From assembly GCF_026107415.2 (NCBI RefSeq), contig NZ_JAPCHX010000008.1:1-64000 (forward strand): a stretch of 64,000 nucleotides of DNA. Reading direction: 5' to 3'. A program made the position numbers and the translations under genes. The stretch is from Microbacterium sp. MPKO10 (lineage in GTDB: Bacteria; Actinomycetota; Actinomycetes; Actinomycetales; Microbacteriaceae). Of this stretch, positions 26,919-62,915 are shown in pieces. Below the pieces are notes generated by a model that was given only the letters and a program-made list of their open reading frames with translations, had not been told where the DNA came from and did not search any database. How positions within the stretch are numbered: position 1 is the first letter of the stretch; every line of letters begins with the position of its first letter.

Positions 26919-26927
26919 GGCACGCTC

Positions 26928-28549: not shown

Positions 28550-28634
28550 GTACGATCTCACGATCTGGGTCGGTGTCCGCCGGGATGGCGCGCACCGGCC
28601 CTCGCTCCCCCACTCGAACCAGCAGGAGGACACC

Positions 28635-37827: not shown

Positions 37828-37876
37828 CAGGGCGCTGCGCAGACCGTCACTTATGACTTCATCTGACGTAGGGGCC

Positions 37877-37954
37877 GGGCTCACGGTGATACGCCCAGAT
37901 GCGCACCGCGGTGGCATCTGGGCGTATCCCTCGCATATTCCTCTGACTTTTCCC
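37877..37954 (+). pseudogene. Fragment matching the 3' end of the IMPase gene
   Basis: This segment encodes A-G-L-T-V-I-R-P-D-A-H-R-G-G-I-W-A-Y-P followed by S-H-I-P-L-T-F-P. It matches the C-terminus of the IMPase-like protein at 51913-51990 almost residue for residue. The two copies differ mostly at third codon positions, so they diverged under coding constraint. No start or upstream domain is present. The DNA from 37889 to 37927 is also a nearly perfect 39 bp palindrome centred on CACCGCGGTG. Confidence 0.7.
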
Positions 37955-37980
37955 GTCGAGGCGAGAATTACGGTGCACGG

Positions 37981-39226: not shown

Positions 39227-40918
39227 TCAACGTGCGGTCGTCGCAGCTCTGACGATCTCGTCGATGAACCGCAGCACCGCGACGCTGCCCGGGTCGGCCT
39301 GCCCGATCGAGCGCTCCTGCTGCCACGCCGCTCGGCCGCGCTTCGACTGGAGCTGCGTTGTCGACTCGACAGTTGCGCGCGCAACGCCCACGGCGCGCTC
39401 AGGCGTCGCGCCCTGCTCAAGCGCTGCGGCAACAGCATCCAGGACATCGAGCAGTGTCTTGTCGCCCACGTGCGCCCCTCCGCTTTCGGCAATAGGGTCG
39501 ACGACCGCGCGCACCACTACCGACACCCGCCCTGACGTCAAATCTTCCTGAGGCTCGAAGATCTCGGCGGCGCCGATCAGTCCGTTGCCCAGAAGCGCGG
39601 CGAATGTTGACGGATTCGCCGCCGCGAATTCCAGACCCGCAGTCGTCAGGATGCTGCGTGCATCCGCGTCTTCGGGGAGACCCTCCAGCGCCCCAATCAC
39701 GGCGTCGCTCCCTGCCGACACGGTGATGCCCAAGTCACCGTCCCCGAGTGCCGCGTCGAGGTCGCGCAGCTCGTCAGTGTGCGCACTCATTCGCGGCAAC
39801 GCCGAGAGCAGAACATCCCGCAGCACACTGCGCGTTCCCGTGCGCCCCACGTCCACGGCGGTTGCACCACCGGCATCCACATGACCGGATGTCGGTGCTA
39901 CGTCGATGTCTGCCACTGCACCCTGCTGAAAGAACGGTGACGCCGCAGGATCATGCAGCAGCTCTTCCAGCTCATCGTCGAGCTGCATGATTGACAAGGA
40001 GGCACCGGCCATCTCGAGGCTCGTCACATACTCGCCGATCAGCTTGTACGCAATCGTCACGCCACGCTCGGCAAGGACACGGTGCACGCGCCGGTACACC
40101 ACGTAGAGTTCCTCAAGCGGCGTCGATCCGAGCCCGTTGACAAGAACGGCGACTCGGGCACCGTCCGTGAGCTCCAGCTCGGTCTCGAGCTGGGCAATAA
40201 ATCGATCGGTGATTTGGTCGGCCGTCTCGAGGGGCCCGCGATGGGTACCTTTCTCGCCGTGAATCCCGACACCGATCTCCATCTCACCGTCGTCCAGCGA
40301 GAAGGTTTCCTCTCCGGCCGCCGGGAGCACGGTCGGAGAGAGTCCGACCCCCATTGTCCGCGTCGATTCGACCGCTTTGCGGGCGACGCGTTCGACATCA
40401 TCGAGATCGTACAGACGCTCGGCAGCTGCACCGGCCGCCTTGTACACGAGAACGAGACCGGCGACTCCACGGCGCGTCTCTTCGCTTCCCGCCGGGGCCG
40501 ACTCGATGTCGTCAATGCCGAGCACCGTGCGCACCTCGATCCCCGCCGAACGGCAGAGGTCAGCGGCCATGTCGAAGTTGTAGACGTCACCGCCGTAGTT
40601 GCCGTACAGATACAGCAAACCGGCTCCAGATGAAACAGCGACGGATGCCGCGTGAATCTGCGCCGAGGAGGGTGATGAGAACACGTTGCCGACGGCAACT
40701 GCCGAACAGAGTCCGGTACCGACATAGCCGAGGAAGAACGGCAGGTGCCCCGAGCCGCCGCCGGTGACGATGCCCACGCGGCCCTCCGCCGGCGCATCGG
40801 CCCGCACGAGCGCCCGCCTGTCACTCGTCGCCGCTCGCAGCCGAGTGCCGTGTGCGAGGAGGATTCCGTCAAGAACCTCGTCGACGAAGTCATCTGCTGA
40901 ATTGATGATCTTTCGCAT
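39227..40918 (-). CDS. Fused dihydroxyacetone-type kinase (DhaK-DhaL)
   Basis: A 563-residue ATP-dependent kinase. The DhaK part (residues 1-330) carries T-G-G-G-S-G-H and the substrate-binding His in V-G-I-H-G-E-K-G (about residue 220), which forms a hemiaminal with the ketose. The DhaL part (residues 370-563) carries D-A-A-L-G-D-G-D-L-G for Mg-ATP. Besides dihydroxyacetone, this fused form includes erythrulose kinases. The ATG at 40918 has GGAGG six bases upstream and aligns with the M-K-K-I-I-N start of the family; an ATG at 40924 overlaps the peptidase stop. Last gene of the sugar operon. Confidence 0.92.
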   Translation of the reverse strand: MRKIINSADDFVDEVLDGILLAHGTRLRAATSDRRALVRADAPAEGRVGIVTGGGSGHLPFFLGYVGTGLCSAVAVGNVFSSPSSAQIHAASVAVSSGAGLLYLYGNYGGDVYNFDMAADLCRSAGIEVRTVLGIDDIESAPAGSEETRRGVAGLVLVYKAAGAAAERLYDLDDVERVARKAVESTRTMGVGLSPTVLPAAGEETFSLDDGEMEIGVGIHGEKGTHRGPLETADQITDRFIAQLETELELTDGARVAVLVNGLGSTPLEELYVVYRRVHRVLAERGVTIAYKLIGEYVTSLEMAGASLSIMQLDDELEELLHDPAASPFFQQGAVADIDVAPTSGHVDAGGATAVDVGRTGTRSVLRDVLLSALPRMSAHTDELRDLDAALGDGDLGITVSAGSDAVIGALEGLPEDADARSILTTAGLEFAAANPSTFAALLGNGLIGAAEIFEPQEDLTSGRVSVVVRAVVDPIAESGGAHVGDKTLLDVLDAVAAALEQGATPERAVGVARATVESTTQLQSKRGRAAWQQERSIGQADPGSVAVLRFIDEIVRAATTAR

Positions 40919-40920
40919 TG

Positions 40921-42000
40921 TCATCCTCCGGAGTACTCGCGCGTCAGCGTGGGCTGCACCTGACCGTTCTCGATGAGCGGTGTCTCGTCGGCGAACAGGT
41001 TACCGCCGCCGCGAAGATCTTTGACGATATCCCAGTGGATCGTTGACTCGTTGAGCCCGCCGCACTGCGGATATGAGCGCCCGAGGGCGAGGTGAACCGT
41101 GCCGAGAATCTTCTCGTCGAGCAGCAGGTCGCCCGTGAGCGTCGTCATCGCGGGGTTCGTGCCGATGCCCAGTTCGCCGACAGTGCGTGCTCCCGGTGTG
41201 TCGAGGATGCGCGAGACGAACTCGCTTCCCTCGCGGGCGCTCGCTGCGGTGACCACCCCGCGCTCGAACTCGAGCTCGAGATCGGTGATGCGGGCTCCGC
41301 CGAACCAGAATGTTCCAGGGAACAGGATGCCGCCGTCGACGCCGTCTTCACGTGGCGCCGTCGCGATCTCACCGTCTGGAAGGTTGGCGTCGCCCGCGAA
41401 GGGCACCCAGGTTCTGCCTGCGCAATTGAGAACGAGGTCGGTATCGGAATCCTGAATGCGCACAACCGATGTCGCGTCGAGCTGCGCACACAGCTCATCG
41501 AGCGAACGCTTGTGCGCTGGCCAGTCGGCGAGCGTCGATGCGAAGAACTCGGTCATGAGATCCGTGTAGCCCACACCGATCAGCTCGGCCCACTCTGGAC
41601 TCGGAACGCGCACGAGAGTCCACCGTGTGTTCTGCCAGCGCGCCGTCGACACGGTGCCCTTGCCCGCCCGTTGCAGGCCGAGCCTGCGCTCGTCGATGCT
41701 GTCGGGCGGCACCACCATGCCGCGGAACGAGACGTGCACATCGGCCCAGTTCATCGACACGAGCTCCATGGGTCCCGGGGCGCTCAGCACGTCGTCCGAC
41801 GCGAAGTCGAGAGCATGCCTGTCGTAGGTCTCGTCTGTTAACTGCACCTGCGGCAGACCGCCGCGGCGATACACCTCGCGAACGAACGCGTCGGCGGCAT
41901 CGGCGACGGCGGGCGACGTGATGAAGATGCTGACGCGGCTCCCCTCTGTCACCTCGTTGACGTTGGCCAGGTGCGAAGCCAGCTCGGGCCACCTGCTCAT
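40921..42000 (-). CDS. M29-family (thermophilic type) aminopeptidase-like protein
   Basis: A 359-residue protein of the M29 clan. The metal-binding region is visible: G-E-L-G-I-G-T-N-P-A (Glu ligand), D-E-K-I-L-G-T-V-H-L-A-L-G (Glu and His), then E-S-T-I-H-W-D-I-V-K-D (His and Asp). All catalytic ligands seem intact. It overlaps the FGGY kinase stop by four bases and the DHA-type kinase follows directly, so it is translationally coupled between two sugar kinases. A peptidase at this place is unusual; it may act on an amino-acylated or amide substrate. Confidence 0.87.
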   Translation of the reverse strand: MSRWPELASHLANVNEVTEGSRVSIFITSPAVADAADAFVREVYRRGGLPQVQLTDETYDRHALDFASDDVLSAPGPMELVSMNWADVHVSFRGMVVPPDSIDERRLGLQRAGKGTVSTARWQNTRWTLVRVPSPEWAELIGVGYTDLMTEFFASTLADWPAHKRSLDELCAQLDATSVVRIQDSDTDLVLNCAGRTWVPFAGDANLPDGEIATAPREDGVDGGILFPGTFWFGGARITDLELEFERGVVTAASAREGSEFVSRILDTPGARTVGELGIGTNPAMTTLTGDLLLDEKILGTVHLALGRSYPQCGGLNESTIHWDIVKDLRGGGNLFADETPLIENGQVQPTLTREYSGG

Positions 42001-43517
42001 TCTGTTGTCTCCTCTTCGGCAGTTCGGGCACCGCGCAGCGCACGGTAGGTTGCGATAAATTCGTCGTGGGCACGGGTCAGCGTGGTGAGGGCGGGGTCAT
42101 CGCTCGCACGCGGTTCGACTGTCGCGTCGGTCGATACCCAGTTGTCGCGGATGTCGGCCTGCGATGTGGACTCGAGGCCGAGGGCTGCGAGAATCGCGTC
42201 GCCGTAGGCAGCGCCGATCGTTGCGGCGCAGTTTTGGTCGAAGCCGAGCAGATCGCTCACCGTCTGCACGAGCACGTCGTTCTTCGTTCCGCCGCCGATC
42301 GCCATCACCCGCTTCGGCTCCATGCCGATCTCGGCGTACGAGCGCACGGCCGCGACGACCGAGTGGGCTACGCCCTCGATCACGGCGCGCGCCATGTCGG
42401 CCCGGCTCGTCGTCAGTGAGATGCCCGTGAACACGCCTCGGGCATCCGCATCGTGAAACGGCGTGCGTTCGCCGCTGAAGTGCGGAATGTGCACGACGCC
42501 GCCGGCCCCCACCGGAGCGTCGTGCACGAGACGCATCAGCTCAGTGAAGAGCGCCGCGTCTCCTTCCCCCTCGTCGAGCCCCAGCATGTCCGCGATCCAG
42601 CGTGTCGCCGTTCCGGCCGTCGAAGTTCCGGCGGCGAGAACGTAGCGGCCGGGGAAGGCGAACGGCGCCGACCACAGCACGGCGTCGGCGATCGGCTCAG
42701 ACGCCACGCGAATCATGTACCCGCTCGATCCGTACATGAGCATGAGGTCGCCATCGTCGAGAACGGATGCCCCGATGGCCTCGGCAACAGCATCAGTCGT
42801 TCCCGTCAGCACGGGAGTGCCCTCAGGGACGCCGGTGTCTGCAGCGCCTTCGGCTGTGACCTGCCCGGCGACCTCACTCGACCAGCGCAGTGCCGGCAGC
42901 TGCTCGACGCGCAGCAGATCGGTGAAGCCCGTGAGATCCCAGCATCCCCGTGCCAGGTCGTAGAACGGGTGATAGTAGCCGGCCGTCGCGTGGTCGATCA
43001 CCACCTCGCCCGTGAGCCTGGCCACCAGAAAGCTCTGGCTCGTCATGTACCACCGTGCCGCCTCGGCCACCTCGGGCTCGTTCTCGATGATCCACGCGAT
43101 CTTGGGCCCTGCCGACTGGCTCGTGAGCGTGTTGCCCGAGCGGCGGAAGATCTCGTCCGCGCCGATGCGACGCTCGAAATCGGCGATCTGCTCGTCTGCT
43201 CTCGTGTCGACGCCGTAGAGGATAGCGGGCCGCAGCGGGTTCAGCTGCGCGTCGACGGGCAGAACGCACGGCCCGATGGCGCTGCACGACACCGCAAGAA
43301 TCTCGTCGTCAGGCGCCAGCTGGCCGACAAGCTCACGAGAGACGCGCGTGAAGTCGCTCCACCAGACATCCAGTGCGTCATGCTCGACGTGCCCGGGGTG
43401 CGGGGTCGAGATGCCGTGGCGCGCGCGTGCCGTCGCGAACACAGCTCCGGCCGTATCGACGAGCACTCCCTTCGTCTCGTAGGTGCCGATGTCGATTCCC
43501 AGAAAATACTGCGTCAC
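41997..43517 (-). CDS. FGGY-family carbohydrate kinase
   Basis: A 506-residue sugar kinase (xylulokinase/LsrK-like): F-L-G-I-D-I-G-T-Y-E-T-K-G (phosphate 1), G-T-T-D-A-V-A-E-A-I (catalytic Asp region), M-Y-G-S-S-G-Y-M-I and the C-terminal M-A-I-G-G-G-T-K-N-D (ATP). It starts with a GTG overlapping the permease stop by four bases. Substrate specificity cannot be told from sequence; the linked importer is of the ribose/AI-2 type. Confidence 0.92.
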   Translation of the reverse strand: MTQYFLGIDIGTYETKGVLVDTAGAVFATARARHGISTPHPGHVEHDALDVWWSDFTRVSRELVGQLAPDDEILAVSCSAIGPCVLPVDAQLNPLRPAILYGVDTRADEQIADFERRIGADEIFRRSGNTLTSQSAGPKIAWIIENEPEVAEAARWYMTSQSFLVARLTGEVVIDHATAGYYHPFYDLARGCWDLTGFTDLLRVEQLPALRWSSEVAGQVTAEGAADTGVPEGTPVLTGTTDAVAEAIGASVLDDGDLMLMYGSSGYMIRVASEPIADAVLWSAPFAFPGRYVLAAGTSTAGTATRWIADMLGLDEGEGDAALFTELMRLVHDAPVGAGGVVHIPHFSGERTPFHDADARGVFTGISLTTSRADMARAVIEGVAHSVVAAVRSYAEIGMEPKRVMAIGGGTKNDVLVQTVSDLLGFDQNCAATIGAAYGDAILAALGLESTSQADIRDNWVSTDATVEPRASDDPALTTLTRAHDEFIATYRALRGARTAEEETTE

Positions 43518-44662
43518 TTCGTCTCCACCGAGTCTGCGCCTGCTGTGTCGGGGGTCTCATCAGCATCCTCGCCGACGTTCGACATCGACGCGATGTTACG
43601 CGTCTGCGTCGAGGCGACGTAGCGCGTTCGTCGTCGGAACCGCAGCTGGTCGAACACCATCACCCCGATCAGAATGACTCCCTGCGCGATCGAGTACTCG
43701 TACGACGAGAGGCGAATCGCGTTGAAGCCCGACTGCACGACCTGCAGCACGAGGGTGGCGAGCACGACGCCCGTGACCGTCGCGAACCCGCCCATGGGGT
43801 TCGTTCCGCCGAGCACGGCGATCACGATGACGAGCAGCACGTACGAGGTTCCGTAGTCGGCGCTGGCCGTCGGGTTGCGTGTGACGAACAGCACACCGGC
43901 GAGCCCGCCCAGCAGACCGGTGGTGAGGTACGTGCCGTACAGCACTGATGCACTCCGGATGCCGGAGAAGCGCGCCGCCGTCGGGTTCGCACCCTGCAGC
44001 TGCGTCTTTCGCCCGAACGGCGTGCGGTTCACGAGCAGCCCGATCACGATGGCGACAACGAGGAACAGCAGAAACAGCACGGGAACGCCCGCGACGGTTG
44101 ACTTGCCCACGGCAGACAGCGCCTGCGGGGCGCCGTAGAGGGTCTTGCCGCCCGTCCACACAATGGCGATGCCGTTGAAGATCTGCATCGTCGCGAGTGT
44201 GGCGAGAATCGGGGTGATGCCGACCGTGCTGATCAGAAATGCGTTGATGAGCCCGGCGAGCACACCGACGGCGATGCCGACGAGCACGATCACCCCGCCC
44301 AGCGATTCGGCGAGCGCCGGGTCGCTGCCGACGAGGCCGGTGTACATCGTGCTGATCGTGATGGCCGTGAGGTTCGCGATCGAGACGAGGGAAAGATCGA
44401 TTCCACCCGTGAGCATCGCGAGAGTCATCGCGATAGCGAGAATTCCGACTTCGGGCGCCGACACCATGATGTTCTGCAGATTCAGCGGGTTCATGAAGAC
44501 CCGGGGGTTCAGCACGGCGAACAGGGCAAAGGCGATGACCAGCAGCACCAGCATCCGCCCGATTCCGCGGTCGACATGAATGTGCGAGATCCACGTGCGC
44601 ACCGTGTTGTCGATGCGCGAATTGACCTGCCCAGCTGCTGATTGATGAGTGCGAATAGGCAT
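43514..44662 (-). CDS. RbsC/LsrC-type sugar ABC permease
   Basis: A 382-residue permease with about nine or ten helices: G-G-I-D-L-S-L-V-S-I-A-N-L (the G-x-D-L-S motif of the family), L-G-G-T-N-P-M-G-G-F. It begins three bases after the first permease gene. The C-terminal 40 residues form a hydrophilic, acidic tail that most relatives lack. Two different permeases in one operon is the arrangement of Lsr- and xylose/rhamnose-type importers. Confidence 0.92.
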   Translation of the reverse strand: MPIRTHQSAAGQVNSRIDNTVRTWISHIHVDRGIGRMLVLLVIAFALFAVLNPRVFMNPLNLQNIMVSAPEVGILAIAMTLAMLTGGIDLSLVSIANLTAITISTMYTGLVGSDPALAESLGGVIVLVGIAVGVLAGLINAFLISTVGITPILATLATMQIFNGIAIVWTGGKTLYGAPQALSAVGKSTVAGVPVLFLLFLVVAIVIGLLVNRTPFGRKTQLQGANPTAARFSGIRSASVLYGTYLTTGLLGGLAGVLFVTRNPTASADYGTSYVLLVIVIAVLGGTNPMGGFATVTGVVLATLVLQVVQSGFNAIRLSSYEYSIAQGVILIGVMVFDQLRFRRRTRYVASTQTRNIASMSNVGEDADETPDTAGADSVETK

Positions 44663-44665
44663 GGG

Positions 44666-45697
44666 CTACGCCTCCACTGTGTCGAGTACGAACGTTCGTC
44701 GTGACGCGCGCCGTGCCGAGAGAGCTTGAATTCCCACGCCGACGACGAGCAGCAGGCCGACGGCTGCGCGCTGCCACGCCGTCGGAACGCCCATCAGCAG
44801 CAGACTGTTGTTGATGAGCTGCACCAGCACGACGCCGAGCACTGTGCCGAGAACCGAACCGCGACCGCCGAAGATGGAGGCGCCGCCCAGCACGACGGCG
44901 GCGATGACGTCGAGCTCGGTGCCGACGATGTCTTGCGGGTTCGCGTTGCGGTTCAGGATCACGTGGATGAGACCCCCGATTGCCGCGATCGCCCCGACCA
45001 TCATGTAGAGGATGATCTGGAAGCGCACGACGGGGAAGCCGGCACGACGTGCCGCCTCGGTGTCGCCTCCGATGGCGTAGATGCCGCGCCCGAACATCGT
45101 GCGGCGCAGCATCCAGGCAACGATCAGCACGATCACGGCGACGGGAACCACGAGAAGCGGCAGGTACGAGCGGCTGCTGTCGATGGCGATGAGGTTCGCC
45201 GTCGAGAGACCGGCCATGCTGTCGGGCAGCTGCGCGATATAGCGCGACCCGATGTAGACCAGAAGGATGCCGCGGAAAATGCCCTGGGTGGCAAGGGTGA
45301 CGATGAGCGTCGGCAATCGGAAGCGCGCGATCACCGCACCGTTCACGAACCCGAGCACGGCTCCGATCGCGCAAGCGAACAGCAGGATGCCGATGATGCC
45401 CGGATCGAACTGCCCCTGTTGCGCCAGGTGCACTGTCGTGTAGGCGGCGAAGATCGCGATAGCGGCGAATGAGACATCGATGCCGCCCGAGATGATGACG
45501 AGCAGCACGGCAATCGCGAGGATGCTCGGCACGAGTGCGGAGCGCACGATCGAGAACAGCGTGTGCACGGTGAAGAATGACGGGCTGAGCAGGCTCATCA
45601 CGATGATGAGCACGACGATGATGATGGCGAGCACGCCCTCGTTGTTCGCGCCGACCAGCCGGGGCGCCAGTGTCTTCATGCGCTGTGCGAGTGTCAC
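44666..45697 (-). CDS. RbsC/LsrD-type sugar ABC permease
   Basis: A 343-residue permease with I-S-G-G-I-D-V-S-F-A-A-I-A (G-x-D-V-S motif) and V-L-G-G-A-S-I-F-G-G-R-G-S. It starts with a GTG overlapping the ATPase stop by four bases. With the second permease it forms the heterodimeric pore of the importer. Confidence 0.92.
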   Translation of the reverse strand: MTLAQRMKTLAPRLVGANNEGVLAIIIVVLIIVMSLLSPSFFTVHTLFSIVRSALVPSILAIAVLLVIISGGIDVSFAAIAIFAAYTTVHLAQQGQFDPGIIGILLFACAIGAVLGFVNGAVIARFRLPTLIVTLATQGIFRGILLVYIGSRYIAQLPDSMAGLSTANLIAIDSSRSYLPLLVVPVAVIVLIVAWMLRRTMFGRGIYAIGGDTEAARRAGFPVVRFQIILYMMVGAIAAIGGLIHVILNRNANPQDIVGTELDVIAAVVLGGASIFGGRGSVLGTVLGVVLVQLINNSLLLMGVPTAWQRAAVGLLLVVGVGIQALSARRASRRTFVLDTVEA

Positions 45698-47196
45698 GCG
45701 GCCATCACCTCCTGAATTCGCTGTGCCTCGATCTGCTCGCTGTCGAACTCGGCGACGAGAGACCCGCGGCGCACGATGAGCACGCGGTTGCAGATGGAGA
45801 CGAGCTCGGGCACGTCGTCAGAGATCATGATGACTCCCATGCCCTCGCGGGCCGCGTCGCGCAGAATTGTGAGAATCTCGTTCTTCGAGCCGACGTCGAC
45901 GCCGACGGTTGGCCCGTTGAGAATCAGGATCTTCGGCTTCGTCGCGAGCCACTTGGCCAGCACGACGCGCTGCGCATTTCCGCCCGAGAGCGAGCGCACG
46001 GGCGCGGCGACGCTTGGCGCTTTGATGCGCAGTCGGGTGAACAGCGTCGAGATCGTCTCGGCGATGCGCTTCTGGCTGAGCACGACTTTTCCGCGCGCGT
46101 GGCTGTCGAGCGACCCCGCGATGATGTTGTCGGCAATCGACTTTTCGAGAAACAGGCCCTGCGTCAGCCGGTCTTCGGGAACGTAGCCGATTCCGGCAGA
46201 GATCGATGAGCGGATGCTGCCGGGGCGCAGCGCCGCTCCGTTGACCGTCACGGTTCCGGATTCGGGCTTCAGCAAGCCGAACAGCGCCTCGACGATCTCG
46301 CCGCGGCCGGAGCCGAGAAGCCCGGTGATGCCGAGAATCTCCCCGGGCGCGAGGTCGAATGAGATGTCGGTGAAGGCACCGGGGAGGTCAAGCCGTGATA
46401 CCTCGAGCAGAGGCGCGCCTCGCTTGCCAAGGTCGTTCACCAGGCGTGTGGTGTCGACGTCGCGCCCGGTCATCGCGACGGTCAGCGACTGCACGCTGTA
46501 CTCGCGTGCGTCTCCGCTGGCGACGAGCTGACCGCTGCGCAGCACCGTGATGTCGTGGGACACCTCGAGCACTTCGTCGAGTTTGTGGCTGACGAACACG
46601 ATGGCGACGCCGCGTTCCTGCAGTTTGCGCACGAGGCCGAAGAGCCTGGCGACCTCGGAGTGAGTGAGGGCCGTTGTCGGCTCGTCCATGAAGAGGATGC
46701 GGGCGTCTTGCACCAAAGCGCGGCAGATCGCCGTGAGCTGACGGTCGGCGACCGAGAGTTTCTCGACGTCGGCGTCCAAGTCGAGGGTGAGGCCCAGCTC
46801 GTCGACGATGCGCTGCGCGCCGGGGCGACTTCTGGCCCGATTGAACAGTTTCTTGCGCGAGGCGATCGCCGCGGGAAGCACAATGTTCTCGGCCACGGTG
46901 AGGTTCGGGAAGAGCGAGAAGTCTTGATAGATCACCTGGATGCCGGCTCGCAACGCTCGGGCGGGCGTCATGCCGCTCATCGCTTCGCCGTCAATGAGAA
47001 TCTCCCCGGCATCCGGGGTATCCACGCCGCTGATGATCTTGATGAGCGTGGATTTGCCACTGCCGTTCTCACCGGCGAGGCAGTGCACGCGCCCGGGCAG
47101 GAGCGACATGGATACACCGTCGAGTGCCGTCACTCCTCCGAAGACTTTGACGATGCCGCGCACTTCGAGAACGGGCGCTTCATTGCGTTCGGCCAT
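45694..47196 (-). CDS. RbsA/LsrA-type sugar ABC ATPase (two ATPase domains)
   Basis: A 500-residue tandem ATPase. Domain 1: Walker A G-E-N-G-S-G-K-S-T, signature-like L-S-V-A-D-R-Q-L and Walker B I-L-F-M-D-E-P. Domain 2 has the degenerate Walker A G-L-L-G-S-G-R-G-E and the signature L-S-G-G-N-A-Q-R, as usual for the RbsA family. An AAAGGA site precedes the ATG. It follows the binding protein gene by 60 bases. Confidence 0.94.
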   Translation of the reverse strand: MAERNEAPVLEVRGIVKVFGGVTALDGVSMSLLPGRVHCLAGENGSGKSTLIKIISGVDTPDAGEILIDGEAMSGMTPARALRAGIQVIYQDFSLFPNLTVAENIVLPAAIASRKKLFNRARSRPGAQRIVDELGLTLDLDADVEKLSVADRQLTAICRALVQDARILFMDEPTTALTHSEVARLFGLVRKLQERGVAIVFVSHKLDEVLEVSHDITVLRSGQLVASGDAREYSVQSLTVAMTGRDVDTTRLVNDLGKRGAPLLEVSRLDLPGAFTDISFDLAPGEILGITGLLGSGRGEIVEALFGLLKPESGTVTVNGAALRPGSIRSSISAGIGYVPEDRLTQGLFLEKSIADNIIAGSLDSHARGKVVLSQKRIAETISTLFTRLRIKAPSVAAPVRSLSGGNAQRVVLAKWLATKPKILILNGPTVGVDVGSKNEILTILRDAAREGMGVIMISDDVPELVSICNRVLIVRRGSLVAEFDSEQIEAQRIQEVMAA

Positions 47197-47256
47197 TGTT
47201 GTCCTTTCGGCGGTGAGGCTCCTGCGAGCCCCACCGCCAGCCTGGGGTGAAAAGGA

Positions 47257-48294
47257 TCAGAAGTCGAAGTCGTCGACGTTATCTGCGTCAACTTCGATCG
47301 CGGCATCTCCGACGTAGACGTTGTCGAAGCCGTCAAGCTTCGTCAGCGACTCATAGCCCTCGATCCCGAGATCGGTGCCCTCTTCGATCTTCTTGCCGCT
47401 GGCCAGCAGCTCAGCGATCTTCAGCTGCGCCTTGCCGGCCAGTGCCGGGTCCCAGAAGAACGCCTTGTCGATCGATCCGTCTTCGAGATATTTCTTGGCG
47501 ACTGACGGGATGCTGGTGCCCATCACGCAGACGCTGTCTTCGAGACCGGCCTCCTGAACCGCACGAGCGATGCCGGCGACGTCGGTTCCTGCCGAGCCCT
47601 GGAAGCCCTTGAGATCGGGGTACTTCGCGAGCAGCTCCTTCGCGCGCTGGTAGGCGACGTTCTCGTCTTCCTTGGTCTCAATCGGGTCTTCGACACGCTT
47701 CATGTCGGGGTACTCGGCCTCTTGCTGCTCTTGAGCTCCGGCGGCCCACTCCATGTGCGTCTTCGCGGTCAGTCCGCCCACGAACGTCACGTACTCACCC
47801 GACTCACCCGTGCACTCAGCGAGGTTGTCCATAATCTGGGCACCATACGCCTTATTGTCGAACGCTTCGATGTCGATGTCGGCGTTCTCGATTCCAGCGG
47901 CTTCGTGGGTGACGACGATGATTCCCTGGTCGCGCGCCTGCTCGAGAACCGTCTCGAGGGCCTTCGGCGAGTTCGGAACGACGGTGATCGCCGTTGGCGC
48001 CTGCGGAATGAGGTCCTGAATGATCTGAACCTGCTTCTCAGGGCTCGCGTCGTCAGCGCCTTCCTGACGCGCGTCGACTCCGCTCTCTTCGGCGAATTCA
48101 TTGACGCCGATCTCCATGCGGTCGAACCAGCCGACGCCGGTGATCTTCACGACAGTGACCATGGTCATGTCTTCGGGCGATAGTGCTTCGCCGTCGTCTG
48201 TTCCTCCGCCTCCGCCACCGACGGTTCCGCAGCCGGTGAGAGCGAGAAGGGCGACGGCCCCGAGCGCGAGGCCCGAGGTAAGTTTCCGATGCAT
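47257..48294 (-). CDS. Sugar/AI-2-type ABC substrate-binding lipoprotein
   Basis: A 345-residue periplasmic-binding-type 1 lipoprotein. Signal peptide with lipobox L-T-G-C (Cys22) and a Gly-rich linker. The mature part reads V-V-K-I-T-G-V-G-W-F-D-R-M, V-T-H-E-A-A-G-I and F-F-W-D-P-A-L-A-G-K-A. The last block resembles LsrB/RhaS-type binding proteins that bind AI-2, rhamnose or related short sugars. I use the ATG at 48294 with AAAGGAG; the frame is open ten codons upstream. First gene of the importer-kinase operon. Confidence 0.92.
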   Translation of the reverse strand: MHRKLTSGLALGAVALLALTGCGTVGGGGGGTDDGEALSPEDMTMVTVVKITGVGWFDRMEIGVNEFAEESGVDARQEGADDASPEKQVQIIQDLIPQAPTAITVVPNSPKALETVLEQARDQGIIVVTHEAAGIENADIDIEAFDNKAYGAQIMDNLAECTGESGEYVTFVGGLTAKTHMEWAAGAQEQQEAEYPDMKRVEDPIETKEDENVAYQRAKELLAKYPDLKGFQGSAGTDVAGIARAVQEAGLEDSVCVMGTSIPSVAKKYLEDGSIDKAFFWDPALAGKAQLKIAELLASGKKIEEGTDLGIEGYESLTKLDGFDNVYVGDAAIEVDADNVDDFDF

Positions 48295-48375
48295 GTGCAC
48301 TCCTTTGTGATATTCCCTCACCACGGGTCGGTGACGGGATTAAATGACACCCTCCCAGGAACCTAAATGCATCTG

Positions 48376-48410
48376 TGTGAATTTGTCAATACGACGTCAT
48401 CATGTGAATT
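48376..48410. promoter_or_regulatory. TGTGAATT repeats upstream of the sugar operon
   Basis: TGTGAATT occurs at 48376-48383 and 48403-48410, 27 bases apart and about 80 to 120 bases upstream of the binding-protein start. A third copy lies in the DeoR/BtpA intergenic region at 49292-49299. The shared word in both control regions suggests a DeoR-type operator. Confidence 0.5.
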
Positions 48411-48442
48411 AACAACAATTGAGTAACGCCGGCGTTCTGCCG

Positions 48443-49222
48443 TCAGCGCGCGGGAACGCACTCCACGGCAACGCCAGCGGCGCGGAAGCCCGTGAGGGCA
48501 GGGTTTTCGGAATCCCCGTCTGTGACAAGCGCGGTGATCTCACCGGGGCCGGCGACGTTCATCAGCTGCACGCGGCCGAGTTTGGAGGCATCCGCCACCA
48601 CGATGACGCGGTCGGCCGTCTGCATCGCCGCCTTCTTCACGGCGCCTTCCTCGCTGTTGTAGTCCGAGAGACCCCGTTTGCCATCGACGCCGGCGACGCC
48701 CATGACGAAGACGTCGCAGTTGTATTGGGCGAACGACGCCACAGACGGCGCGCCGATAAGACTGAGCTCGCCCGGGCGCACCATTCCCCCGGTCATCACG
48801 ATTTTCGTATTCGGCTCATCGTGAAGCTCAAGCGCAACGAGAATGCTCGGAGTGATGATCGTGAGGCCGAGACCGCGCCCTCTGATCGCACGTGCAACGG
48901 CGAGCACGGTGCTGCCGCTGTCGAGCGCGACTGTCTCGCCGGGCTTCAGCAGCTCCACGGCCGCCGCCGCGATGTGCGCCTTCTCGCGAGCACCCATCAG
49001 CGCGCGAGAGGTGAACGTCGGCTCTGACGCCTTCCCGCGCGATGCGATGGCGCCGCCGACCACCCGGCGAACGCTGCCCTTTTCTTCGAGAAGCTCGATA
49101 TCCCGCCTGATCGTCATCTCAGACACGTCGAACTCCAGGGCCAGTGTGCGAAACTCCGCCTCTCCATCGGCAAGCACCCGCTGCTCAACACGTGCGCGAC
49201 GCTCGTGGGCTTCCATCGCCAT
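48443..49222 (-). CDS. DeoR-family transcriptional regulator
   Basis: A 259-residue repressor. The N-terminal winged helix reads F-R-T-L-A-L-E-F-D-V-S-E-M-T-I-R-R-D-I-E-L-L-E, the DeoR signature; the C-terminal sensor domain carries L-D-S-G-S-T-V-L-A-V-A and V-M-T-G-G-M-V-R. Such proteins sense phosphorylated sugars. It lies between the importer operon and the divergent btpA-like gene and probably controls both. An in-frame ATG two codons in is an alternative start. Confidence 0.93.
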   Translation of the reverse strand: MAMEAHERRARVEQRVLADGEAEFRTLALEFDVSEMTIRRDIELLEEKGSVRRVVGGAIASRGKASEPTFTSRALMGAREKAHIAAAAVELLKPGETVALDSGSTVLAVARAIRGRGLGLTIITPSILVALELHDEPNTKIVMTGGMVRPGELSLIGAPSVASFAQYNCDVFVMGVAGVDGKRGLSDYNSEEGAVKKAAMQTADRVIVVADASKLGRVQLMNVAGPGEITALVTDGDSENPALTGFRAAGVAVECVPAR

Positions 49223-49260
49223 AGCATCCGTCCCTTCTGACCCCGTCGCGGGGTCTCTCT

Positions 49261-49299
49261 TGTGTTAATTGTTCACTTATGGTTAGGCTCTTGTGAATT
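49261..49299. promoter_or_regulatory. Divergent DeoR/BtpA control region
   Basis: GTGTTAATTGTTCAC (49262-49276) is an imperfect inverted repeat, and TGTGAATT recurs at 49292-49299 followed by CATACC. The region separates the DeoR gene from the BtpA gene and shares its key word with the importer promoter. Confidence 0.45.
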
Positions 49300-49338
49300 C
49301 ATACCATCACCTCTGCGTCAGAGCTGAAACGAGGAACA

Positions 49339-50160
49339 ATGACCAACTGGCTGCCCGACGTCTTCTCATCACCGAAACCCGTTGTGGGGATGCTTCATCT
49401 TTCCGCACTGCCCGGTGATCCAGGCTATGACTCCAACGCCGGTATCGCCGCAATCGTCGACAGGGCGAAGCGCGAACTGAACGCCCTGCAAAGCGGCGGC
49501 GTCGACGGCGTGCTGATCTCCAACGAGTTCAGCCTTCCGTATCTGACCGACACCGAGCGAATCACGTCGGTGACGATGGCCCGGGTCATCGGCGAGCTGA
49601 CGAGCGACCTCGCGGTGCCATACGGCGTCAACGTTCTGTGGGATGCTCGCGCGTCGATCGACCTGGCCGTTGCGACGGATGCCGCGTTCGTGCGCGAGAT
49701 CTTCACGGGCGTCTACGCGAGCGACTTCGGCCTGTGGAACACCAACGTCGGTGAGGTTTCTCGTCATCGTCATCGCATCGGTGCCGGGGGCGTCAAGCTG
49801 TTCTTCAACATCGTTCCGGAATCAGCGGCATACCTGGCCGAGCGCGACCTCTCGTCGATCGCCCGCTCGACGGTGTTTGCAACGCTGCCCGACGCGCTCT
49901 GCGTGTCTGGTCTCACCGCCGGCGCTCCGACAGACACGCAGTCGGTGTCGATCGTGAAGCAGGCGGCGGGCGATGTGCCCGTGTTTGTAAACACCGGCGT
50001 GAAGGCCGATAACGTCGCCGACCAGCTCTCTGTCGCCGACGGCGCCATCGTGGGCACCTTCTTCAAGAAGGATGGAAAGTTCGAGAACTCTGCCGACCAA
50101 TCGCGGGTCGAAGAGCTCATGTCAGCAGCGCGGTCATACCGCGCGGAGGTCGCTGCGTAG
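49339..50160 (+). CDS. BtpA/SgcQ-family protein
   Basis: A 273-residue TIM-barrel protein of the BtpA family: P-V-V-G-M-L-H-L-S-A-L-P-G-D-P-G-Y at the N-terminus, S-N-E-F-S-L-P-Y and F-V-N-T-G-V-K-A-D-N-V. BtpA was first linked to photosystem I stability, but most bacterial members (SgcQ) sit in sugar loci and are suspected sugar-phosphate enzymes. A GAGGAAC site precedes the ATG. It lies between DeoR and the isomerase gene, in the same locus as the importer. Confidence 0.9.
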   Translation: MTNWLPDVFSSPKPVVGMLHLSALPGDPGYDSNAGIAAIVDRAKRELNALQSGGVDGVLISNEFSLPYLTDTERITSVTMARVIGELTSDLAVPYGVNVLWDARASIDLAVATDAAFVREIFTGVYASDFGLWNTNVGEVSRHRHRIGAGGVKLFFNIVPESAAYLAERDLSSIARSTVFATLPDALCVSGLTAGAPTDTQSVSIVKQAAGDVPVFVNTGVKADNVADQLSVADGAIVGTFFKKDGKFENSADQSRVEELMSAARSYRAEVAA

Positions 50161-50212
50161 CAGTGAACCGCAGACGCCGTCGTGTCACGAGCTGGCGCGC
50201 TGTGGCTGGACA

Positions 50213-51136
50213 TCAGGCGAGCACCTTCGTCCAGACATCAACAGTGCGGCGCAGCATCGGCACGACGGCGTCGTCGCGCAGCTCGTGTGCGGGCATGACC
50301 TCGATCAGCAGCGGGCTCTCGCTCCACCCCGCATCGGCGAGCGCCGCGGCAACGCGGGCGGGGTTCACGCCGCTCATCGGGTCGGCTTCGTCGACCCCCG
50401 CGTGCATGTCGGCGCCGGGGCGCGAGTTCTGCAGCTGCAGCATGGGGTTCGTGGTCCAGCGTGTGGCGAACCAGGGCGCGAGTGCGTCATCGTCGTCACT
50501 CGGCGCCATCGCCACGGGGTGCCCCACGTCAAGACACAGCTGCCAGGGAACGGATGCTGTCGCCAGCGAGGCTTCCCATTCCACAGCATCCTCGAGCAGC
50601 GACCCCGGTTCACGTTCGACCGCCATGTTCTCTAACAGGAGCGTCGACAGCCCTTCGGCCTCGGCGCGCTCCGACAGCCGCAGCATCCGCTCGCGCAGTT
50701 CATCGAGCGCACGCTCGCGATGCGCGGGCTCTGAGGCCGTCGCGATCGTGAGCGCACCGATGTGCCCGCCGACCGAGCGGGCTCCGGCGATGCCGCCGAG
50801 CTCGATCAGGCTCGCATACCAGCCTTCAGCTGCGTCACGCGCGGCGACGTCTTCGCTCAGCAGCAGGTTCGTCGAATATGCGGCGAGGCCGGTGAAGATC
50901 GAATGCACCTCGACGCCGGCGGCTTCGGCGGCCTGCGCGAACTGGCGCACGTACGTGCGCGCCTCTGCCGACCGAGGGTCGGCCAACGGCAGGGTGTCGA
51001 CGCTCAGCTGGCACATCTGCAGGCCGAGCTGGTTACTGACGATGTGCAGTATCTCGTCTGGTCGCGTCCACCGCTTCACAGCGAAGCACGTGTTGATGCC
51101 GAGTGCCACCGGTGCTGTCCTCTCTGGCGTCCCCAT
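50213..51136 (-). CDS. Sugar-phosphate isomerase/epimerase-like TIM barrel
   Basis: A 307-residue AP-endonuclease-2-type barrel: G-I-N-T-C-F-A-V at the N-terminus, S-V-G-G-H-I-G (His), L-L-L-E-N-M-A (metal-binding Glu), C-L-D-V-G-H-P-V (Asp and His) and L-I-E-V-M-P-A at the end. The metal ligand set is present. Relatives include erythrulose-phosphate and tagatose/psicose isomerases, consistent with the DHA-type kinase nearby. Start at the ATG at 51136; the frame is open further upstream. Confidence 0.87.
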   Translation of the reverse strand: MGTPERTAPVALGINTCFAVKRWTRPDEILHIVSNQLGLQMCQLSVDTLPLADPRSAEARTYVRQFAQAAEAAGVEVHSIFTGLAAYSTNLLLSEDVAARDAAEGWYASLIELGGIAGARSVGGHIGALTIATASEPAHRERALDELRERMLRLSERAEAEGLSTLLLENMAVEREPGSLLEDAVEWEASLATASVPWQLCLDVGHPVAMAPSDDDDALAPWFATRWTTNPMLQLQNSRPGADMHAGVDEADPMSGVNPARVAAALADAGWSESPLLIEVMPAHELRDDAVVPMLRRTVDVWTKVLA

Positions 51137-51167
51137 CGTTGTTCCCACCCTAGCTGAGATTTTCTCG

Positions 51168-51187
51168 CACACTGTTGGTACCGTGTG
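51168..51187. promoter_or_regulatory. Inverted repeat between isomerase and IMPase genes
   Basis: CACAC (51168-51172) and GTGTG (51183-51187) flank ten bases in the divergent region. A candidate operator shared by the two genes; only symmetry and position support it. Confidence 0.35.
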
Positions 51188-51219
51188 AGGTTCTCGCATT
51201 GTTTGTGAACGGAGCACAC

Positions 51220-52011
51220 ATGGCTGCATCAATCGACGACGAGCTACTCATCATCGCCCGCGGCGCCGCCCAGGCCGGAGCGCTGATTCTCGACGACTCC
51301 ATCGGCGCCCACATCAGCGTGACGGCGAAGAGTGAGCTGGGCGACGTCGTCACCGACGTCGATCGTCGCGCAGAGCAGACGATCCGCAGCTACATCAGCG
51401 CGCGCCGCCCAGACGACGCCATCACGGGCGAAGAGCTCGACGCGACAGGCGATGATGCTTCGCGCTACCGCTGGTCAATCGACCCGCTCGACGGAACGTC
51501 GAACTTCGTCACGGGCATCCCGTACTTCGGCTCGTCTGTTGCGGTGCAAGATGTCGAGTCGGGCCACTGGATCGCGGGCGCAGTGAACGCACCTGTCCTC
51601 CGCCAGGAGTACTACGCGCAGCGGGGCGCGGGCGCGTGGCGCGTCTCTCGCGGCAGCACGGCAGAGCTGACCGGGCCCGACCCCGACGCGCGCACCGTGC
51701 TGTTCGGCACGGGCTTCTCGTACAGCAGCGAGATGCGGGCGACGCAGTTCGCCCAGCTGCCGCACTACATGCAGAACTTCACAGATGTGCGCAGTGTCGG
51801 CTCGGCCGCTCTCGGCCTCTGCATGGCTGCCGACGGCTCGACGAGCGCCTTCGTCGAAACCGATCTCTACGAGTTCGACTGGGCGGCCGGGGCCCTCATC
51901 GCCGAAGAGGCCGGGCTCACGGTGATACGCCCAGACGCACACCGTGGTGGCATCTGGGCGTATCCGCGGCACATCCCGCTGACGATCCCCGATACGGGCG
52001 GTACTGTCTGA
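51220..52011 (+). CDS. Inositol monophosphatase-like phosphatase
   Basis: A 263-residue IMPase-family protein: G-D-V-V-T-D-V-D, G-E-E-L (metal ligands), I-D-P-L-D-G-T-S-N-F (catalytic Asp/Thr motif) and E-F-D-W-A-A-G-A-L-I-A-E-E-A-G. The C-terminus V-I-R-P-D-A-H-R-G-G-I-W-A-Y-P is repeated as a gene fragment at 37877. It probably dephosphorylates a sugar phosphate or inositol phosphate. Start at the ATG at 51220, which has GGAG upstream. It diverges from the isomerase gene. Confidence 0.9.
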   Translation: MAASIDDELLIIARGAAQAGALILDDSIGAHISVTAKSELGDVVTDVDRRAEQTIRSYISARRPDDAITGEELDATGDDASRYRWSIDPLDGTSNFVTGIPYFGSSVAVQDVESGHWIAGAVNAPVLRQEYYAQRGAGAWRVSRGSTAELTGPDPDARTVLFGTGFSYSSEMRATQFAQLPHYMQNFTDVRSVGSAALGLCMAADGSTSAFVETDLYEFDWAAGALIAEEAGLTVIRPDAHRGGIWAYPRHIPLTIPDTGGTV

Positions 52012-55281: not shown

Positions 55282-55683
55282 ATGCTGAGCATCGGAGCGG
55301 TCGCCGCCGCCGCGGGCGTCACGCCGCGTGTCGTTCGGTACTACGAGCAGAGCGGCCTGCTGGCATCAGAGCGCACAGCGGGAGGTCAGCGCCGGTACCC
55401 CGAGTCGGCTATCGAGCGCGTCGAGTTCATTCAGCACCTGATTCGCGCCGGCCTCACCACAGAGGTGATTCGCGACCAGCTCTCGTGCGTGAACTCGCGC
55501 GTCGCGACGCCCGACACCATCGAGAAGCTCCGAGCGCAGCGGGAGCATATCGCGCGGCGCGCCGCCGAGCTGAACAGCATGGAGCAGCGAATCGCCGACC
55601 TCATCGATGCCGCGCACGACTCCATTTCGGCCGAGGATGCTGCCTCGGCGCACTCTCACATCGCTACGCGCGCTCGAGGGTGA
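55282..55683 (+). CDS. MerR-family transcriptional regulator
   Basis: A 133-residue regulator: S-I-G-A-V-A-A-A-A-G-V-T-P-R-V-V-R-Y-Y-E-Q-S-G-L (winged helix), R-R-Y-P-E-S-A-I-E-R-V, followed by a coiled-coil dimerisation helix. No conserved metal-binding Cys or SoxR cluster Cys pattern is present, so it probably senses an organic or oxidative signal. A GAGGAGC site precedes the ATG. Its 3' end overlaps the convergent DUF4127 gene by 20 bases. Confidence 0.92.
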   Translation: MLSIGAVAAAAGVTPRVVRYYEQSGLLASERTAGGQRRYPESAIERVEFIQHLIRAGLTTEVIRDQLSCVNSRVATPDTIEKLRAQREHIARRAAELNSMEQRIADLIDAAHDSISAEDAASAHSHIATRARG

Positions 55684-57181
55684 TCGCCACCTCGAAGCTG
55701 CGGCGCCACGGCAACGTCAGCGATGTGACAGACCAGTCGCCGCCGGGCAGCGACTCGCACAGCATCCTGTTCATGTCGTCGCGAATGACCGCGCAGGCGT
55801 GCTCGACCCGAGCGTCGTCGGCCAGCGGGAAGCGGTCGGGAAACAGGTCTGCCCCCTTCTCGCTGCGGATCACCGCCTGGTAGGCGTAGTCATCGAGCAG
55901 ACGAGTCAGCAGCGCCCGACGTGATGCCTCGGCGTCGAACCTGCCCGACGCACGCCCCGCTTCACCGGCGACGCACAGCGAGATGACGCTGCCGATAGTG
56001 TTGCCCGCCGTATTCCACGCGCCGAACGCCTCGAGACGTTCGAGCAGCCCCTCGGCGGCGAGACGCTTCAGCAGCTCGGCATCGGCGCCGTTCGGAAACC
56101 GCACGTCGGCGAGCGCGACGCGACTGCCCTCGTCGAGAGAGCGCCGCACCAGCTCGACCGTCGCCTCGGCGGCATCCAGATCAGGGGTCTCGGGGTAGCC
56201 GCGGAACATATCGTGCCGATCCGGATCGGGTGCGTGAAGCACGAGCACGACGTCGACATTCGCCGCGTCGGGCTCTCCGGCAACACGCTCAGCGCCAGCC
56301 GCGCGAATCTGCCTGTCGACGGAGCCGCCGAGAGGCCCGTTCTCGAACGGCGGCACCCGGTCGAACCCGCCGTCTTGCGCAGTGAGCGCGGCGAAGGTGG
56401 GGCGAACGCTGCTCTCGGCCGCGATCGCACGGGCAACGAGCGCCGCGCCCACTTCGTCTGCCCCGGGGTACATGAGCGTGTCACGCGCGCCGGGCAGAAA
56501 GCGCATCCAGTGCCGCAGCCACACCTGCTCGACCGAACCCGCGGCGAACGTCGCGGTGTCATCGGCCGTGATCGCGAGAAAGTCGAGAGTTCCCTCGCTA
56601 CGCAGCAGCAGCGCGTTCATGTTGACCATGTGATTGCGCGCCCGGCGCGAGGCGTAATCGGTGAGGATGCCGTCTGGCACCTCGATCTGCGTGTCGATTC
56701 CGTCGGTCTCGGTGCGATCGAGCTGCTGATGCAGCGCACCCCCGAGGGCGTGGAGGTCTTTGCCGTAGTCTTTCCAATAGTCAGGCTCTTCCGCATTGGA
56801 GTACGAGTTGCTCGCGCGCATCACGAGACTGACGGCGAAGATGGTGAGCTCGGGGCGCTGCCGCTTGATCTCACGCAGCACGTCGAGGCGCGCGATCACG
56901 TCGCGCACCGGGTCGTGCGATGTGCGGCTCGCGATCAGCCCGCCGTAGAGCAGCATGTCGACCGAGACGACGAGGTGCGTCGTGTCGGGGTCACTCGCCC
57001 GCTCGCGCAGCCATGCGGCCAGAGCATCCGTGTCTCCCTGCTCGCGATAGTTCGGCAGCATCGCGGCGTCGGGCACGTCGAGAGCGACACCGGCAACGTT
57101 CGCGACGTCTGCGGGAAGCAGCACATTGACGGGGCGGTCGTCGAGGGGAAGCAGGGCGATGCGGCGGCCGTGAGAGTTCAT
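55664..57181 (-). CDS. DUF4127-family protein
   Basis: A 505-residue cytoplasmic protein of the uncharacterised DUF4127 family. The N-terminal A-L-L-P-L-D-D-R-P-V-N is the family hallmark; S-V-D-M-L-L-Y-G-G-L, R-A-S-N-S-Y-S-N-A-E-E-P-D-Y-W and L-A-I-T-A-D-D-T are further conserved-looking blocks. These rows of Asp and Asn look like a metal or sugar site. It lies 15 bases downstream of the GntR gene, co-transcribed, and opposite an amino-sugar importer with NanE, which suggests an amino-sugar-related enzyme. The function is unproven. Confidence 0.87.
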   Translation of the reverse strand: MNSHGRRIALLPLDDRPVNVLLPADVANVAGVALDVPDAAMLPNYREQGDTDALAAWLRERASDPDTTHLVVSVDMLLYGGLIASRTSHDPVRDVIARLDVLREIKRQRPELTIFAVSLVMRASNSYSNAEEPDYWKDYGKDLHALGGALHQQLDRTETDGIDTQIEVPDGILTDYASRRARNHMVNMNALLLRSEGTLDFLAITADDTATFAAGSVEQVWLRHWMRFLPGARDTLMYPGADEVGAALVARAIAAESSVRPTFAALTAQDGGFDRVPPFENGPLGGSVDRQIRAAGAERVAGEPDAANVDVVLVLHAPDPDRHDMFRGYPETPDLDAAEATVELVRRSLDEGSRVALADVRFPNGADAELLKRLAAEGLLERLEAFGAWNTAGNTIGSVISLCVAGEAGRASGRFDAEASRRALLTRLLDDYAYQAVIRSEKGADLFPDRFPLADDARVEHACAVIRDDMNRMLCESLPGGDWSVTSLTLPWRRSFEVAITLERA

Positions 57182-57196
57182 GGTGTCCTGTCTGAG

Positions 57197-57919: not shown

Positions 57920-57937
57920 CTGGGCTCCTTTGCAAAA

Positions 57938-58014
57938 TGGTTATGACCAATCTTGACGTGAGATGCACTTCTGTGTCAATATTCACAGCATCCGCTTCAA
58001 TTGGTATGTACCAA
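57938..58014. promoter_or_regulatory. GntR operator pair of the amino-sugar locus
   Basis: TGGTTATGACCA (57938-57949) and TTGGTATGTACCAA (58001-58014) share the form TGGT-N4-ACCA, close to the sites of DasR/NagR-type regulators. One lies before the GntR gene, the other before the importer operon, so the regulator probably controls both directions. Confidence 0.7.
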
Positions 58015-58051
58015 ATCACTGTATGCCAGAGCCAAAGATGGAAAGGGCACC

Positions 58052-59341: not shown

Positions 59342-59348
59342 TCAACCG

Positions 59349-61898: not shown

Positions 61899-62131
61899 CC
61901 GCGGCGCGCTCCGTTCCAAAAACCCCGAAGGCCTCCAAGACTCGGCTGTGAAGTTTTCCCGCCCAGACTCGAATTTCGTGCGCGACGACGCGGCCGTACC
62001 AATCACTTTCGTGAGCGCGTCGCCTCCTACCCGGCTCGGGTTGAGACTCGCTCAGTAGGATGGCCGCGATGAGCGCGAACGTCGTTCGCGCGTCGCAACG
62101 TTGATGTGCGCGACCGAGAATCTAAGCGGCC

Positions 62132-62812: not shown

Positions 62813-62915
62813 CGCGTCGCTGCCGTCAGGACCTCATCTCGACGACTGTGTCTGCCCTCAAGTGACGCGGTGCGCCGCGGCATCCTGTTGCCTGCCGCGG
62901 CGCATGCCGCAATCG

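Follow-up and report, generated by a model that had tools for sequence, protein, structure and literature searches.

Which substrate calls for a sugar importer, two kinases and an aminopeptidase gene in one locus? We addressed this question in a stretch of 64,000 bases (hereafter the window) of the 3.7 Mb genome of Microbacterium sp. MPKO10 (contig NZ_JAPCHX010000008.1, positions 1 to 64,000), in which the locus occupies positions 39227 to 52011 (Table 1). Seven genes form an operon on the minus strand, in the order sugar-binding protein (SBP), ABC ATPase, two permeases, FGGY sugar kinase, M29-family hydrolase and Dak-type dihydroxyketone kinase. The SBP and ATPase genes are separated by 60 bases, and all junctions from ATPase through Dak are 4-base overlaps or 3-base spacings. 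The later of two possible SBP starts is preceded, at a distance of 148 bases, by a gene for a DeoR-family regulator. The BtpA gene is divergent from it, with its start 116 bases away on the opposite strand, and beyond BtpA lie genes for a TIM-barrel protein and an IMPase-family phosphatase, whose starts overlap. All the open reading frames were found where a first-pass annotation, made from the sequence alone, had placed them, and Pfam confirmed every family. Our answer is tentative. The locus may be a DeoR-controlled operon for the import and catabolism of a D-ribulose-like ketopentose or of its conjugate, a reading we regard as possible and short of probable.

The gene set is not a chance assembly. 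Among 299 genomes of the same family (Microbacteriaceae), 11 encode the M29 gene (E ≤ 1e-40). FGGY adjoins it in all 11, and BtpA is present in the locus in all 11, at 1 to 8.3 kb from M29 in the ten relatives. A wider scan with the M29 alignment gave 340 encoding stretches; we retained the best 80, all of them found by M29, so that the counts below do not represent the whole set. Partner genes were scored by tblastn with the window proteins. Many of these loci come from metagenome bins, five are contigs shorter than 6 kb (L046, L067, L094, L096 and L097), and the gene maps were built from the longest open frames, so that weak genes may be missed. The 80 relatives span seven phyla. FGGY was found within 9 kb of M29 in 77 of them and BtpA in 70, followed by DeoR (45), the CUT2 binding protein (43), Dak (31) and IMPase (10); tblastn found the TIM-barrel gene in none of the 80. 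By these counts, what is conserved widely is a unit of FGGY, M29 and BtpA (hereafter the triad) with an importer; the TIM-barrel protein and IMPase accompany it in particular lineages. The BtpA gene of Arthrobacter, Cellulomonas and Aquiluna is itself a member of the operon, placed between those for Dak and FGGY, and this arrangement connects the divergent BtpA of our locus with the pathway. The initial proposal of an undescribed pathway for a sugar or sugar conjugate, coupling import with two kinases, is supported. We found no paper describing this gene combination in the open-licence literature. The main text of a review of FGGY kinases does not contain the name BtpA (PMC3245297), and among the literature matches listed this name often stands for a chemical or for a Brucella protein with no relation to this one.

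The TIM-barrel gene has a much narrower distribution. It occurs in four of the 299 same-family genomes, which are exactly the four same-genus genomes with the M29 locus; a fifth same-genus genome (G001) has neither the gene nor the locus. One of these four matches, that in G148, contains an in-frame TAG. A contig from another family (L148) encodes a relative, 46% identical, after DeoR, BtpA and FGGY. This contig ends inside the TIM-barrel gene, and M29 was not found on it. Comparison of the TIM-barrel protein with the TIM proteins encoded in three BtpA loci of rhizobia and Thermus gave no useful similarity. We dropped the TIM-barrel gene as a member of the wide core, given its absence from the 80 relatives, and retained it as a genus-level companion, so that its earlier inclusion is supported for the genus and not for the wide core.

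This distribution bears on whether the locus degrades erythrulose or a tetritol by means of an isomerase of TIM-barrel fold and an erythrulose kinase of the Dak type. Pathways for tetroses and tetritols combine a TIM-barrel isomerase and a polyol dehydrogenase with Dak. The window does encode both a fused Dak and an AP_endonuc_2 protein, the latter is present in every same-genus genome that holds the locus, a relative follows BtpA and FGGY in L148, and Dak passes the broad family model and not the glycerone kinase equivalog. However, the TIM-barrel gene is missing from the wider relatives, the operon has no tetritol dehydrogenase, and FGGY, M29 and BtpA would be left unexplained. We consider tetrose catabolism, to which the first-pass annotation had seen a resemblance in the Dak-type kinase and the isomerase, very unlikely. 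Our searches of the open-licence literature found no paper treating erythrulose together with threitol and others.

The binding protein gives an indication of the ligand. The solved chains nearest to the SBP are 5bra and 9i1m, the latter being AauA of enterohaemorrhagic Escherichia coli (EHEC) with D-ribulose. According to the available text of the AauA study, D-ribulose is contacted by K37, W43, E118, H167, E196 and S223 (PMC12307932). The window SBP has K, W, E, H, E and G at these positions, i.e., it keeps five of the six contacts. When it was aligned with 24 SBPs from other triad loci, all 25 proteins had the K, the W and the first E, 22 had the H, 20 had the second E (two more had D), and one had the S. 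Among the control proteins, one of the six residues is kept in E. coli LsrB, AlsB and YtfQ and none in RbsB and XylF; an SBP of Pantoea annotated for autoinducer-2 (AI-2) also keeps one. As read from these aligned residues, the pocket would favour a ketopentose-like furanose and disfavour AI-2. The missing serine is the contact of the C5 hydroxyl, so the ligand would probably differ from D-ribulose at C5.

The SBP had been likened to AI-2 or rhamnose binders. Across the six positions compared, LsrB of E. coli has only the K in common with the window SBP, against five residues shared with AauA, and we rejected an AI-2 binder on these pocket residues, in a comparison that left rhamnose binders outside. 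Uptake and processing of AI-2 by an Lsr-type system is accordingly a most improbable function for the locus. The models for LsrA, LsrC, LsrD, LsrB and the AI-2 kinase do match its proteins, but far below their cut-offs, and the family scans reported no LsrF or LsrG family among the locus genes.

The FGGY kinases of the triad loci (33 and that of the window) form one clade (support 100/99). They are apart from E. coli XylB, AraB, GlpK, LsrK and FucK, all of them on long branches, and from the rhizobial and Thermus kinases. The residues L95 R96, I99 L100 Y101 G102, D104 and R106 A107 are common to at least 97% of the rows. The window kinase stayed below the cut-off of all 13 NCBIfam models listed: XylB (TIGR01312) scored 276 bits for a curated cut-off of 380, and TIGR01315 scored 68.7 bits for a cut-off of 408.7. 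The latter is, in the part of the work at hand, the model with which the kinases of the Aau/Rbl study were collected (PMC12307932). The D-ribulose transport system Aau/Rbl of EHEC and Citrobacter rodentium, as its accessible description goes, resembles our locus in having a sugar ABC importer, in five of six ligand residues and in the FGGY kinase of Rbl (PMC12307932). Yet Rbl includes an isomerase of the KpsF type, the kinase of the window falls short of TIGR01315, and the same portion of the paper mentions no M29, BtpA or Dak.

A second known system came from BtpA, which is 57% identical to SgcQ of E. coli. We built a tree of 70 BtpA proteins, including 41 from triad loci (taken from 47 chosen loci) and that of the window. 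All 42 triad proteins fall in a clade of 47 rows with support 100/100, together with two SgcQ, two rhizobial proteins linked to PIG-L and one long-branched protein. SgcQ of E. coli and Salmonella and the rhizobial pair are nested among the triad proteins (98/86 and 96/94). The program warned of long branches meeting, so we used only the inner placements of this tree, on which the presence of M29 and FGGY as a label requires three changes. The sgc operon of E. coli K-12 (sgcXBCQAE and sgcR) shares with our locus a DeoR-type regulator, a BtpA of the same clade, a metallopeptidase gene and sugar import with phosphorylation. It has a phosphotransferase system (PTS) where the window has an ABC importer and FGGY, and the M42 peptidase SgcX where the window has M29; it also encodes an Rpe-like epimerase and lacks Dak. 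Conversely, the window operon has no PTS or M42 genes. Among the plasmids, whose gene tables are incomplete, a Salmonella record lists DeoR, an Rpe-like protein, SgcB, SgcC, SgcQ and M42, and tblastn found no M29 in the E. coli sgc or Salmonella plasmid loci. Four spirochaete triads also hold an Rpe-like gene. As part of the same tentative reading, E. coli sgc may be a derived form of the core, with PTS and M42. A 2026 study reports, in the sections available, that sgc mutants grew without defect on 190 carbon sources and that the substrate is not established (PMC13343008).

We left BtpA genes outside this clade, most of which have different neighbours, out of the model. Some loci of rhizobia, Labrenzia and Thermus plasmids resemble ours in encoding DeoR, BtpA, FGGY and a sugar importer. 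They differ in having a short-chain dehydrogenase/reductase (SDR), no M29 and another type of sugar importer, and their BtpA is only 43-45% identical to that of the window and lies outside the clade. On plasmid pRLN4 of Rhizobium leguminosarum (L169), BtpA and FGGY stand beside two isochorismatase-family hydrolases, an allophanate hydrolase and a gamma-glutamyltransferase, which makes this another nitrogen-linked BtpA locus. On a distant BtpA branch, a Pantoea locus (L167) is annotated with a PfkB kinase, ABC sugar importers and a phosphotriesterase-related gene. Two further loci of this branch, by the appearance of their sequences, have phosphotriesterase-like genes (L152 and L158), together with CUT2-like genes in L152. 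These three loci probably belong to another pathway.

The fold of BtpA did not reveal its reaction. The model (predicted local distance difference test, pLDDT, 91.6) matches many barrels that bind phosphate, among them GGGPS, MJ1099, hexulose-6-phosphate synthase, KDPGal aldolase and HisF, all tied at Z 18-19. As structure searches gave tied barrels only, the reaction cannot be read from the fold. At the sequence level there was no significant match among the PDB sequences (best E 0.31). In the model, NTGV closes strand 7 and ADGAIVGT contains strand 8, and together these resemble a phosphate site. We know of no reaction for a BtpA/SgcQ protein of this kind.

The M29 protein has the features of a hydrolase. 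Its model (pLDDT 95) matches the aminopeptidases PepS, AmpS and AmpT with TMq 0.65-0.84 (up to 0.84 for PepS), and more weakly the 2,5-dihydroxypyridine dioxygenase NicX (0.55-0.59). In an alignment of the window protein with 47 others from the 47 chosen loci, E211, E276, H303, Y310, H322 and D324 are invariant in all 48 rows; the first four align to the peptidase residues, and H322 and D324 were placed by motif and order. The catalytic motif of the family, EEHYHD, is the one named in the excerpted text of PMC7023490. To judge from the alignment, the catalytic set of a di-metal hydrolase is intact. M29 thus resembles AmpT, AmpS and PepS in its fold and catalytic residues; it differs from them in being about 40 to 55 residues shorter, in its low identity (19-24%) and in being encoded beside sugar kinase genes.

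These residues matter for an alternative in which M29 is a new metal-dependent sugar isomerase. As in the FucI-FucK-FucA plan, it would produce a ketose that FGGY phosphorylates and BtpA cleaves as an aldolase, and Dak would take the dihydroxyacetone. Four loci (two of Tsukamurella, one of Amycolatopsis and one of Pseudonocardiaceae) are consistent with this scheme, since they encode DeoR, BtpA, FGGY and M29 with no recognised importer or Dak, though an SDR-like gene is nearby in L056 and L058. In addition, the rhizobial, Labrenzia and Thermus loci have an SDR near BtpA and FGGY and no M29, as if SDR and M29 both supplied the ketose. But M29 keeps all peptidase catalytic residues, the tyrosine included, we know of no M29 isomerase, and strand 6 of BtpA has no lysine. 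We consider this scheme doubtful.

Alternatively, M29 could cut an amide. The substrate would be a sugar with an N-acyl or aminoacyl group (e.g., a ribulosamine/Amadori product), which FGGY would phosphorylate, M29 would cleave at the amide and BtpA would process as the sugar phosphate. In agreement with this, BtpA genes of the same clade stand beside M42 (SgcX) or PIG-L, which are unrelated metal hydrolases of amide bonds, in loci where tblastn found no M29. The intact catalytic set of M29, and the isochorismatases and allophanate hydrolase beside a BtpA and FGGY outside the clade, point in the same direction. So does the induction of SgcABCEQX, 16 to 25-fold on nitrogen-containing carbon sources according to the accessible sections of PMC13343008, but such induction does not identify the substrate. 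Moreover, M42 and PIG-L beside BtpA are known from two records each, FGGY was not found in the PIG-L loci, and the AauA contacts, as far as the text at hand gives them, say nothing on a C1 substituent (PMC12307932). We consider this amide-conjugate scheme unlikely, if less doubtful than the isomerase scheme. A bolder version is rather unlikely: BtpA/SgcQ would be a new enzyme that cleaves phosphosugars, one of several interchangeable metal amide hydrolases would serve as its partner (M29, M42 in sgc, or PIG-L in rhizobia), and the module would degrade a sugar-amide, i.e., a ketopentose conjugate, which would explain the cryptic sgc operon.

Dak is less constant than the triad. Both of its halves keep their motif, GVGIHGEKG at 218 (GIHGEKG) and LGDGDLG from 388, which we take to be the ketone-binding and the nucleotide-binding motifs, respectively. 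It passes the broad family model and misses the cut-off of the glycerone kinase equivalog (320 for 575 bits), so its ketone could be dihydroxyacetone or another. Many Dak-bearing relatives have split DhaK and DhaL, and the genome has three more Dak1 places. Five spirochaete triads (L060, L061, L066, L070 and L075) share a small protein beside DhaL, which in L060, where it was scanned, is ureidoglycolate-lyase/DUF4867-like.

In the pathway for a ketopentose or its conjugate that we tentatively favour, the CUT2 importer would bring the sugar in and the FGGY kinase would phosphorylate it. BtpA, as a barrel enzyme of the phosphosugar-binding type, might then cleave or rearrange the sugar phosphate. 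M29 would act on the same substrate or product as a hydrolase; if M29 and M42 share a job, M29 would act after phosphorylation, since the PTS makes a phosphosugar. Where present, Dak would phosphorylate the released short dihydroxyketone (e.g., dihydroxyacetone) for glycolysis. Computation shows the gene content, the conserved core, a single clade each for kinase and BtpA, the pocket and catalytic residues and the predicted folds, from which the substrate, the sequence of steps and the chemistry of BtpA and M29 are inferred.

Several results weigh against this pathway. A plain D-ribulose pathway needs the kinase only; M29 and BtpA would be superfluous in it, and the actual substrate must be another one. 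At the position of AauA S223, 24 of the 25 triad SBPs have G, A or M, and three triad SBPs carry Q for H and S for E. The kinase scores 276 bits with XylB and 69 bits with the pentulose kinase model TIGR01315, both below cut-off. The lack of a lysine in strand 6 of BtpA makes a KDPG-type aldolase with a Schiff base mechanism unlikely. The gene content also varies, with 49 of the 80 loci lacking Dak, ten lacking BtpA and three lacking FGGY. Neighbour clustering also revealed a second importer type, whose binding protein was seen in 15 loci and whose permeases were seen in 16 and 19. Its one binding protein that was scanned is an SBP_bac_1, CUT1-like, which indicates that some triads have a CUT1 importer and that an AauA-like binder is not universal.

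Co-regulation of the two halves of the locus by DeoR is plausible from the distribution of a short repeat. The 8-mer AATTCACA has three copies in the window, two upstream of SBP and one between DeoR and BtpA (Table 1). Shuffled sequences gave 0.7 copies on average, and three copies were reached in three of 100 shuffles. Of the 8,301 8-mers that occur at least three times, it alone is confined to the two gaps and found in both; random pairs of low-GC stretches equalled this pattern in 18 of 2,836 cases. The pattern had been seen before these statistics were run. Throughout the genus the gap between DeoR and BtpA is conserved; in Leucobacter and Microbacterium this holds in part. On the SBP side, one copy is exact in L016 and neither is exact in L017, L018 and more distant loci.

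Table 1. Coordinates of the genes and intergenic gaps of the locus in the window.
Feature	Position	Strand	Basis
Dak, dihydroxyketone kinase of the fused DhaK-DhaL type, 565 aa, last gene of the operon	39227..40924	-	Pfam Dak1+Dak2
M29, di-metal hydrolase with aminopeptidase T fold, 359 aa, core gene	40921..42000	-	Pfam Peptidase_M29
FGGY sugar kinase, 506 aa, core gene	41997..43517	-	Pfam FGGY_N/C
Permease 2, Rbs-type (CUT2)	43514..44662	-	BPD_transp_2
Permease 1, Rbs-type (CUT2)	44666..45697	-	BPD_transp_2
Double ABC ATPase of the importer	45694..47196	-	ABC_tran, two stretches
Sugar-binding protein (SBP), start at 48294 or 48324	47257..48294	-	Peripla_BP_4
Gap upstream of SBP, two AATTCACA copies (48376-48383, 48403-48410), candidate DeoR operators	48325..48442	.	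sequence
DeoR-family regulator	48443..49222	-	HTH_DeoR + DeoRC
Divergent DeoR/BtpA gap, one AATTCACA copy (49292-49299), candidate operator	49223..49338	.	sequence
BtpA/SgcQ protein, 273 aa, core gene, predicted TIM barrel of phosphosugar type	49339..50160	+	Pfam BtpA
TIM-barrel protein resembling sugar isomerases/epimerases, companion at the genus level, start codon uncertain	50213..51232	-	AP_endonuc_2
IMPase-family phosphatase, optional companion	51220..52011	+	Inositol_P; DPLDGT motif

The surroundings of the locus hold other features. A direct repeat of 97 bases, 84% identical, links positions 37859-37955 and 51896-51991; the former reproduces the 3' terminus of the IMPase gene, on the other side of the locus from that gene. 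At a guess, the 14 kb unit was inserted or duplicated by recombination. A second sugar locus (55664-63980) encodes a DUF4127 protein, a GntR-type regulator, an SBP, two permeases, a NanE-like epimerase, and HAD-like and amidohydrolase-like proteins; DUF4127 and NanE were named by Pfam and the rest from the appearance of their sequences. Two genes on opposite strands (19301-20710 and 28506-29813), presumably CoA-transferase-like, are 71% identical in DNA over 635 columns, and genes at 25797-28549, between them, have the appearance of an ABC importer.

The link of sgc to a module found in seven other phyla, and a pocket that can be read against a solved complex with D-ribulose, reduce the candidate ligands to a short list. 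The reaction of BtpA/SgcQ and the substrate of sgc hence become directly testable questions. The analysis also suggests a reason for an aminopeptidase gene in a sugar operon: the hydrolase may be a steady part of one pathway.

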